A DNA stretch of 64,000 nucleotides. Source: Actinocrinis puniceicyclus (GTDB lineage Bacteria; Actinomycetota; Actinomycetes; Streptomycetales; Catenulisporaceae). Location: the NCBI RefSeq assembly GCF_018283645.1, contig NZ_JAGSXH010000022.1, positions 1-64,000 of the forward strand, in the 5' to 3' direction. Shown here piece after piece: positions 57,298 through 57,483 of the stretch. The notes under the pieces are model-generated. The model ran no database searches and was not told the DNA's origin. It saw only the letters and a program-made list of their open reading frames with translations. The position numbers and the translations under genes are program-made. The number at the start of each line of letters is the position of its first letter. Position 1 is the first letter of the stretch.

Positions 57298-57436
57298 GAC
57301 TTCCTGTCTGGTTGGAGCGGACGGTTCGGGAGAACCCCTGGTCCGTCGGCTCGAACCCTGCGGAAGTCGCTAGCGGCCTGAAGCGGCCGAGGCGTGGGGA
57401 AGCGCGACCCCTGCGGTTCCCGGACGGGACCAGGGG
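57298..57436 (-). promoter_or_regulatory. Candidate translational attenuator of the PheRS-like gene
   Basis: In mRNA order: hairpin A, CCCCTG/CAGGGG with inner TCCC/GGGA (57436-57408); anti-SD GACTTCC (57368-57362); hairpin B, CGGAC-cagg-GGTTC/GAACC-GTCCG (57345-57318); and the SD-containing GGAAGTC (57304-57298), which is perfectly complementary to the anti-SD. The 5' arm of A, CCCCTGGTCC (57436-57427), is also perfectly complementary over 10 nt to GGACCAGGGG (57344-57335) in hairpin B. So A and B compete with a long-range A:B helix, as expected of an attenuator. Visible complementarity is certain; regulation is inferred. Confidence 0.55.
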
Positions 57437-57471
57437 CCGGTAAATCGGTATGTCACGACTACCGAGGCCAC
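57370..57471 (-). CDS. Putative leader peptide (33 codons) of the PheRS-like gene
   Basis: GTG 57471 opens a 33-codon frame rich in Val, Ser, Ala and Pro with Tyr8, Phe10 and Trp14 codons (VTYRFTGPW). Its stop TAG (57372-57370) lies one base before the anti-SD sequence. It passes through hairpin A. TATGCT sits 6 nt before the GTG, so the mRNA would begin with this ORF, as at other leaderless genes here. A ribosome at the stop would cover the anti-SD and free the downstream Shine-Dalgarno. The frame is open further upstream, so the start is chosen on the -10 position. Confidence 0.45.
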   Translation of the reverse strand: MASVVVTYRFTGPWSRPGTAGVALPHASAASGR

Positions 57472-57477
57472 GTGTCC

Positions 57478-57483
57478 AGCATA
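57478..57483 (-). promoter_or_regulatory. Candidate -10 for the leader/PheRS-like transcript
   Basis: TATGCT on the minus strand, six bases before GTG 57471. No convincing -35. Confidence 0.4.

Follow-up and report, generated by a model that had tools for sequence, protein, structure and literature searches.

A putative leaderless phenylalanine-codon attenuator upstream of srmL, a gene for a nearly phenylalanine-free PheRS-like protein

Introduction

The auxiliary tryptophanyl-tRNA synthetase TrpRS1 of Streptomyces coelicolor is reportedly resistant to indolmycin, and its gene, trpRS1, is said to be controlled by ribosome-mediated transcriptional attenuation. The pheST attenuator of gamma-proteobacteria is terminator-based. 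In erm-type attenuators a 1:2 helix, together with a helix between segment 3 and the Shine-Dalgarno sequence, alternates with a 2:3 helix, and a stalled ribosome exposes the Shine-Dalgarno sequence. Attenuators with a single sensor codon are unusual.

The work of Vecchione and Sello (2010; J. Bacteriol. 192:3565) and Kitabatake (2002) on trpRS1 is cited in PMC4787780. Seliverstov et al. 2005 (PMC1262725) name the pheST attenuator of gamma-proteobacteria, describe trpS2 and leuS attenuators in Actinobacteria as well as translational ileS T-boxes, and state that in Actinobacteria phenylalanine operons are not preceded by conserved RNA structures. Leaderless polycysteine leader ORFs in mycobacteria (Canestrari et al. 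2020) are cited in PMC13236596.

The locus described here lies in a 64,000-nucleotide stretch of DNA from Actinocrinis puniceicyclus, here called the window. It contains srmL, a gene for a nearly phenylalanine-free, monomeric PheRS-like enzyme, preceded by a leader that we hold with good confidence to be a ribosome-mediated translational attenuator, sensing charged tRNA-Phe and controlling srmL.

Elements of the leader

The leader and srmL are located on the minus strand (Table 1). All elements of the original prediction, namely TATGCT, the GTG at 57471, the ORF, its stop, GACTTCC, GGAAGTC and a 10-nt complement, lie where it had placed them. The leader peptide of the window has a tyrosine at position 8, a phenylalanine at position 10 and a tryptophan at position 14.

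Table 1. Coordinates of the leader elements and of srmL in the window.
Feature	Position	Strand	Remarks
-10 element TATGCT	57478..57483	-	six bases ahead of the leader start GTG 57471
Leader ORF, 33 codons, MASVVVTYRFTGPWSRPGTAGVALPHASAASGR	57370..57471	-	homologous ORF (18-33 codons) at 57 srmL loci
Leader stop TAG	57372-57370	-	one base before GACTTCC 57368-57362
Sensor codon UUU, Phe10	57442..57444	-	sole invariant codon in the leader peptide
Segment 1, CCCCTGGTCC	57427..57436	-	begins five bases past the Phe codon; partner is segment 2 or 4; basis: covariation in alignments A1 and A4, own-versus-cross duplex test
Segment 2	57404..57423	-	partner is segment 1 (OFF) or segment 3 (ON)
Segment 3, anti-Shine-Dalgarno	57353..57372	-	core GACTTCC 57368-57362, adjoining the leader stop
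Segment 4, GGACCAGGGG	57335..57344	-	pairs with segment 1 over a long range; of all helices in the leader, 1:4 covaries most strongly
Segment 5, Shine-Dalgarno GGAAGTC of srmL	57298..57304	-	5 nt ahead of ATG 57292; partner is segment 3
srmL gene, 380 aa	56150..57292	-	PheS catalytic and ferredoxin-fold anticodon-binding domains; NF051887

Taken as a single sequence, the leader is mildly unusual, and the case for structure in it is weak. A perfect complement of at least 10 nt, with arms at least 60 nt apart, occurs in 17 of 1000 dinucleotide shuffles of the leader. The minimum-free-energy folding proposed with the original prediction was run and gave a z of -1.3; neither this nor the accessibility of the Shine-Dalgarno sequence at equilibrium was decisive, and they inclined towards OFF in all states but the one with a ribosome at the stop codon. 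The single-sequence statistics being weak, the attenuator claim rests on comparison. Rfam gave no match above a gathering threshold in the window and, up to an E of 10, nothing relevant in the leader. There is no terminator-like site in the leader, and NCBIfam and Pfam searches with the leader peptides returned no family.

The SrmL protein and its loss of phenylalanine

The srmL product matches NCBIfam entry NF051887 ('PheS-related mystery ligase SrmL') over the whole model, with 518 bits against a cut-off of 300. It stays below the cut-offs of TIGR00468, the canonical bacterial PheS (91 bits; cut-off 237), and of TIGR00469, the mitochondrial-type PheRS family (95 bits; cut-off 258). With Pfam, the class II core of PheRS is recognised, and the FDX-ACB domain scores 30.3 bits, just below its cut-off of 31.1. 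An AlphaFold2 model of SrmL, calculated from 13 relatives, has a pLDDT of 87.7. This model can be superposed onto human mitochondrial PheRS (PDB entries 3cmq and 5mgv) with a Z of 33.8 over 346 of the 380 residues, at a sequence identity of 24%; its match to PheS alone, with a Z of about 25, is well below this. The predicted architecture is that of mitochondrial-type PheRS, a single chain with a PheS catalytic domain and a ferredoxin-fold anticodon-binding domain. A separate canonical pheS (281 bits against TIGR00468) is present on another contig of the same genome.

The distribution of srmL is sporadic: it is present in three of 392 genomes of the order and three of 396 genomes of the phylum. 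No conserved partner gene was found beside it; its neighbours are common only to closely related genomes, and srmL is therefore a single-gene unit. Within limited searches of papers, none naming SrmL was found. In same-family relatives, truncated remnants of srmL are present at three loci (L002, L003 and L006); the gene of G001 lacks its first third and in G006 and G004 only carboxy-terminal pieces are left. These remnants probably reflect decay of the cassette. Downstream of srmL and on the same strand, a gene at 55080-56099 matches Antibiotic_NAT with 238 bits and resembles aminoglycoside 3-N-acetyltransferases; its NCBIfam scores fall far short of the cut-offs set for resistance types.

SrmL of the window does not contain a single phenylalanine in its 380 residues, although the composition of the window's genes would predict 10.9 (P about 2e-5); the composition control consisted of the window genes and the loci. 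Among the 35 other coding-like genes of the window, none of at least 200 amino acids is phenylalanine-free, the fewest being four. Of 61 SrmL relatives, 38 are likewise devoid of phenylalanine and the rest contain one to five, giving a frequency of 0.22% versus 5.63% in 54 canonical PheS sequences. Expressed as SrmL to canonical PheS ratios, phenylalanine stands at 0.04, tyrosine at 0.97 and tryptophan at 1.89, so that tyrosine and tryptophan are not depleted. A distant parcubacterial homologue, 30% identical, has 14 phenylalanines. In the Arthrobacter group (L045-L080) most SrmL proteins have two phenylalanines, up to five, while nearly all other family members have none. Four phenylalanine-free genes first sorted as non-srmL were recognised by their position as srmL genes. 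Phenylalanine-free SrmL is also found in metagenome-assembled genomes assigned to KSB1, Steroidobacter and Acidobacteria (L038, L082 and L086), by transfer between phyla or by mis-binning, and at L082 the RF leader MPLARTHVFAFRFTGPGLFQASGVAIVR is present as well.

The replacements extend into the active site, where FPFT of canonical PheRS has become HPYT and GFAFG has become GLALG, leaving the pocket without the two phenylalanines that bind the substrate phenylalanine. The amino acid of SrmL may therefore not be phenylalanine, and the enzyme could be a ligase with another substrate or job that is merely expressed during phenylalanine starvation, not a backup PheRS. The curated name 'mystery ligase' is in keeping with this, as is the presence of HPY in place of FPF in nearly all aligned relatives. 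However, SrmL retains motifs 2 and 3 of class II synthetases as well as the anticodon-binding domain, the model matches mitochondrial PheRS from end to end, and the loss of FPF can also be explained by a general removal of phenylalanine; another substrate is thus possible, although we think it rather unlikely.

Biosynthetic enzymes tend to contain less of the amino acid that they produce. To our knowledge, and within limited searches of papers, no synthetase has been described from which the cognate amino acid has been purged this far. An enzyme purged of phenylalanine is useful only if it has to be made without Phe-tRNA.

Conservation of the leader

A scan of genome contigs yielded 59 relatives, mostly from actinobacteria. 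The comparison of homologues proposed as a check of the original prediction came out in its favour: of the about 60 srmL loci whose upstream DNA could be read, 57 carry the same leader, and both the anti-Shine-Dalgarno and the long-range pairs co-evolve. A covariance model also finds three loci that had been excluded from model building (L035, L071 and L085). Upstream of one Arthrobacter srmL copy (L074, 2600-3000) no recognisable leader was seen.

In 49 of 54 relatives a TANNNT box is located 6-7 nt ahead of the leader start, compared with 1.0% of all ATG and GTG codons at the same loci. With the box only 6-7 nt away from the start codon, the transcript from which the leader ORF is translated is probably leaderless. 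The TATGCT noted in the original prediction thus takes on a changed meaning, implying a leaderless ORF that has no ribosome-binding site.

Phenylalanine is present in all 54 aligned leader peptides, and no other residue is. Its codon is UUU in 51 of the 54, in contrast to the srmL genes, where 41 of their own 42 phenylalanine codons are UUC. The residues kept next best are a proline at +3 (52 of 54) and an arginine at -1 (41 of 54). In most leaders the sensor phenylalanine is codon 6 to 10, and a C-rich segment follows a few bases later. Of the three residues first suggested as sensors, phenylalanine is upheld; tyrosine and tryptophan are not conserved. A short ORF ahead of the gene, in which a codon for the amino acid to be sensed is conserved, is a mark of ribosome-mediated attenuators, and the srmL leader has one.

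Pairings and their co-evolution

In an unbiased scan of all column pairs of a 50-leader alignment, the helix 57436-57429:57335-57342 (1:4), which is the long-range complement of the original prediction, came first for covariation, and the local hairpin 1:2 came second. In a 32-leader alignment, 91.9% of the 1:4 cells are paired, with 19 double-change cells against a shuffled mean of 7.5; slid versions of the helix, used as control, are 40-68% paired, with a maximum of 67.8%. For 1:2 there are 18 double-change cells against a shuffled mean of 5.3.

Segments 3 and 5 align poorly, and co-evolution was therefore tested without an alignment. In this own-versus-cross test the duplex energy of two segments within a genome is compared with that between genomes, the segments being placed solely with reference to the positions of the Phe codon, the leader stop and the gene start. 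Ten segment pairings are possible, and sets of 8, 13 and 27 cluster representatives were used. The pairings 1:2, 1:4, 2:3 and 3:5 are better within genomes in all three sets, with z values for the 27 representatives of -7.6, -7.1, -3.1 and -6.8, respectively, which are indicative because cluster representatives are related. The pairings 1:3, 2:4, 2:5 and 3:4 show no such advantage in this test; 1:5 gives a marginal signal in one set, and 4:5 a weak positive one in two of the three. The helices 1:2, 2:3 and 3:effector are mutually exclusive, 2:3 giving the weakest signal of them, and nearly all control pairings are negative. Judged by sequence comparison, the four positive pairings are those of classical attenuator wiring plus one long-range pair. 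The hairpin set first proposed was thus correct in 1:4 and in the pairing of anti-Shine-Dalgarno and Shine-Dalgarno, and it missed the helix between segment 2 and the anti-Shine-Dalgarno. With a conserved leader and co-evolving pairings, a leader-peptide attenuator in front of the PheRS-like gene is well supported.

The effector of this wiring hides the Shine-Dalgarno sequence, as in translational attenuators: 3:5 co-evolves and forms more pairs than region-3 shuffles in 45 of 53 leaders. The alternative structures might still decide on Rho-dependent termination of transcription rather than on ribosome access, a kind of control that has been suggested for some actinobacterial leader peptides (PMC1262725). 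The co-evolution of the Shine-Dalgarno with its complement and the lack in the leader of an intrinsic terminator, the effector of the transcriptional subtype, make this an unlikely account, although the two levels of control are not mutually exclusive.

Folding of the leader

Folding was calculated for the nascent RNA and at equilibrium. In nascent RNA that ends at segment 3 and carries no ribosome, 1:2 is predicted with 10.1 expected pairs and 2:3 with 3.2; when a ribosome on the Phe codon covers segment 1, 2:3 rises to 13.7. This gain is at least two pairs in 44 of 53 leaders and negative in none, and 2:3 with the ribosome on the Phe codon exceeds controls with a shuffled segment 3 in 47 of 53. 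In the window, 57420-57403:57371-57353 replaces 57440-57424:57423-57404. L084, L088 and L047 are among the leaders in which 2:3 is predicted even when no ribosome is stalled. A stall at the Phe codon should therefore expose the Shine-Dalgarno sequence, for which segment 3 is the complement.

In the equilibrium calculations OFF has the lower ensemble energy, by an average of 5.7 kcal/mol, and 1:4 contributes 7.4 kcal/mol to the ON ensemble. In full-length equilibrium folds the accessibility of the Shine-Dalgarno sequence is not raised by a ribosome on the Phe codon; the only ribosome position that raises it is the leader stop codon, where the median opening cost falls from 6.4 to 3.5 kcal/mol. 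As OFF is favoured at equilibrium and a ribosome on the Phe codon does not open the Shine-Dalgarno sequence, the ON state must be kinetic. Folding calculations alone would favour the opposite sign, in which a stall turns srmL off.

The same leader type before canonical pheST

A covariance model built on srmL leaders only (R1) was used to scan 396 genomes of the phylum. It matched the leader of a canonical pheS-pheT operon in another family (L098, 1498-1647; MRMRRFPCPGSFHPGMPVDRSPVDLP), in which 1:4 has 11 base pairs, pheS starts 74 nt past the leader stop and pheT comes next. The phylum scan had other matches (L099-L106); of the seven listed, L098 alone keeps the TTT codon, 1:4 with its two arms and a pheS downstream, and the rest look like chance. 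In three same-family relatives of L098 pheS is preceded by VSRLAHHRFPRPGWLTRGY, MAALRFPCPGRTAWGR and VTTQLQRFSCPG, in each case with a UUU codon, a hairpin and a -10 box close by. The RF-type leaderless phenylalanine leader is thus found at four canonical pheST loci (L098, L146, L147 and L149) of one family in the same phylum. A strict leader scan of 188 pheS upstream regions returned these four; the reverse strand gave no match, and shuffled sets gave one at most. Against shuffles, the 2:3 helix of the four pheST leaders does not stand out clearly, and 1:4 does so in three of them. The strict scan found no RF leader upstream of the canonical pheS of the srmL genome itself. We know of no Rfam family that covers the RF-type leader of canonical pheST. 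From the match of R1 and the four pheST leaders it follows that the leader type belongs to PheRS control.

Two other upstream regions of canonical pheS were noted. At L165, from a different genome of the class, an ATG ORF, MTGSTLRFTAPSDAAAVLR, lies on the reverse strand at about 270-330 of the upstream region; a 14-bp perfect long-range complement follows the RF codon, and the -10 box is not of the TANNNT form. In a further genome (L158, 495-570), a GGUGGUACCGCGG motif precedes a hairpin and a U-run; this element is probably a T-box.

Direction of the switch

The original prediction had a ribosome that finishes the ORF free the Shine-Dalgarno sequence, and one stalled at the sensor codon leave it hidden. 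Under this sign, translation of the whole leader covers the anti-Shine-Dalgarno at the stop codon, so that plentiful Phe-tRNA turns srmL on and a stall turns it off. The anti-Shine-Dalgarno does adjoin the leader stop in most relatives, and the equilibrium folds agree in so far as a ribosome at the stop opens the Shine-Dalgarno sequence. However, this sign leaves the co-evolving pairings 1:2 and 2:3 without a function, it would shut off a phenylalanine-free PheRS-like enzyme exactly when Phe-tRNA is short, and at canonical pheST, which has the same leader type, repression at starvation is senseless. We regard it as improbable. The 2:3 helix, the phenylalanine-poor SrmL and the canonical pheST leaders fit the reverse, and it is the near absence of phenylalanine from SrmL and the shared leader type that lead us to place ON at starvation.

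Even less probable is that the leader senses a ribosome-targeting antibiotic by stalling at Arg-Phe, in the manner of erm or ABC-F genes, with SrmL as a resistance factor. Translational attenuators of that kind are known for resistance genes, and an arginine does precede the phenylalanine in most leaders. Yet the phenylalanine alone is invariant, serine takes the place of arginine in the Geodermatophilus group and UUU is retained although UUC is the usual codon; moreover, the leader type recurs before canonical pheST, and SrmL is a phenylalanine-depleted homologue of PheRS. Chance complementarity in GC-rich DNA, for which the single-sequence statistics would speak, is hardly credible in view of 57 conserved loci, covariation with controls, matches on held-out loci and co-evolution confined to the attenuator pairings.

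Proposed mechanism

The four pairings, the conserved codon, the phenylalanine depletion and the predicted fold come from the comparison of related sequences; from them we infer which way the switch works in the cell, that 1:4 serves as a latch and that SrmL is catalytic. Transcription would start at or beside the GTG of the leaderless leader ORF. When Phe-tRNA is plentiful, the ribosome would clear the single UUU and depart, the local 1:2 hairpin would form, and segment 3, left free, would pair with the Shine-Dalgarno sequence, so that srmL is off. When Phe-tRNA is short, the ribosome would stall on UUU and cover segment 1, segment 2 would capture segment 3 as it emerges, and the exposed Shine-Dalgarno sequence would turn srmL on. 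Once the stalled ribosome moves, 1:4 may pair around the 2:3 helix and latch the ON state; this latch is proposed because 1:4 and 2:3 are nested and compatible and because of the energy that 1:4 adds to the ON ensemble. As SrmL contains almost no phenylalanine, its synthesis could be completed even when there is no Phe-tRNA, and the enzyme would then most likely restore Phe-tRNA charging as a backup PheRS. On balance we lean towards SrmL being a starvation-proof backup PheRS, purged of phenylalanine down to its active site, which a leaderless Phe-codon attenuator switches on and which travels with this switch as a single-gene cassette.

Such a scheme would give a testable job to a family that is curated and unexplained, and the enzyme would have been remodelled to do without the amino acid whose scarcity triggers its synthesis. 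A phenylalanine-rich PheRS becomes unmakeable once charging of Phe-tRNA fails, be it by starvation or by a natural PheRS inhibitor; if the scheme is true, SrmL and its switch break this deadlock, and srmL would offer a clean example, from nature, of the bootstrapping problem that aminoacyl-tRNA synthetases face. Should SrmL prove to work as a PheRS, the changes in its pocket may give clues to natural PheRS inhibitors and to the ways in which producers and neighbours cope with these compounds.

Comparison with known systems

The srmL leader would work like known attenuators, and by analogy its nearest precedent is the auxiliary trpRS1 of S. coelicolor. On the reading proposed here, both are second, auxiliary actinobacterial aminoacyl-tRNA synthetase genes under ribosome-mediated attenuation; that of trpRS1 concerns tryptophan and is transcriptional, whereas that proposed for srmL concerns phenylalanine, is translational and leaderless, uses a single codon and serves an enzyme devoid of its cognate amino acid. 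The gamma-proteobacterial pheST attenuator also places a leader with Phe codons before PheRS genes, but it controls canonical PheRS, and the srmL leader has no Rfam match. The trpS2 and leuS attenuators and the ileS T-boxes are likewise examples of RNA-controlled actinobacterial synthetase genes, and the ileS T-boxes also hide the Shine-Dalgarno sequence; they differ in the amino acid and in using terminators or direct tRNA binding. The mycobacterial polycysteine leaders share with the srmL leader a leaderless short ORF and an amino-acid attenuator in an actinobacterium, and differ in having a run of Cys codons and cysteine-responsive operons. Erm-type attenuators have the same wiring, with the stall caused by an antibiotic instead of missing charged tRNA. 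Human mitochondrial PheRS resembles SrmL in being a monomer with a PheS-type catalytic domain and a ferredoxin-fold anticodon-binding domain, while SrmL, at the low identity given above, lacks the FPF motif and almost all phenylalanine. Set against these systems, what is new is the leader family, its phenylalanine specificity in Actinobacteria, where the earlier survey found no phenylalanine attenuator (PMC1262725), its translational, leaderless, single-codon form, its being common to canonical pheST and SrmL, and the purge of phenylalanine from the enzyme.
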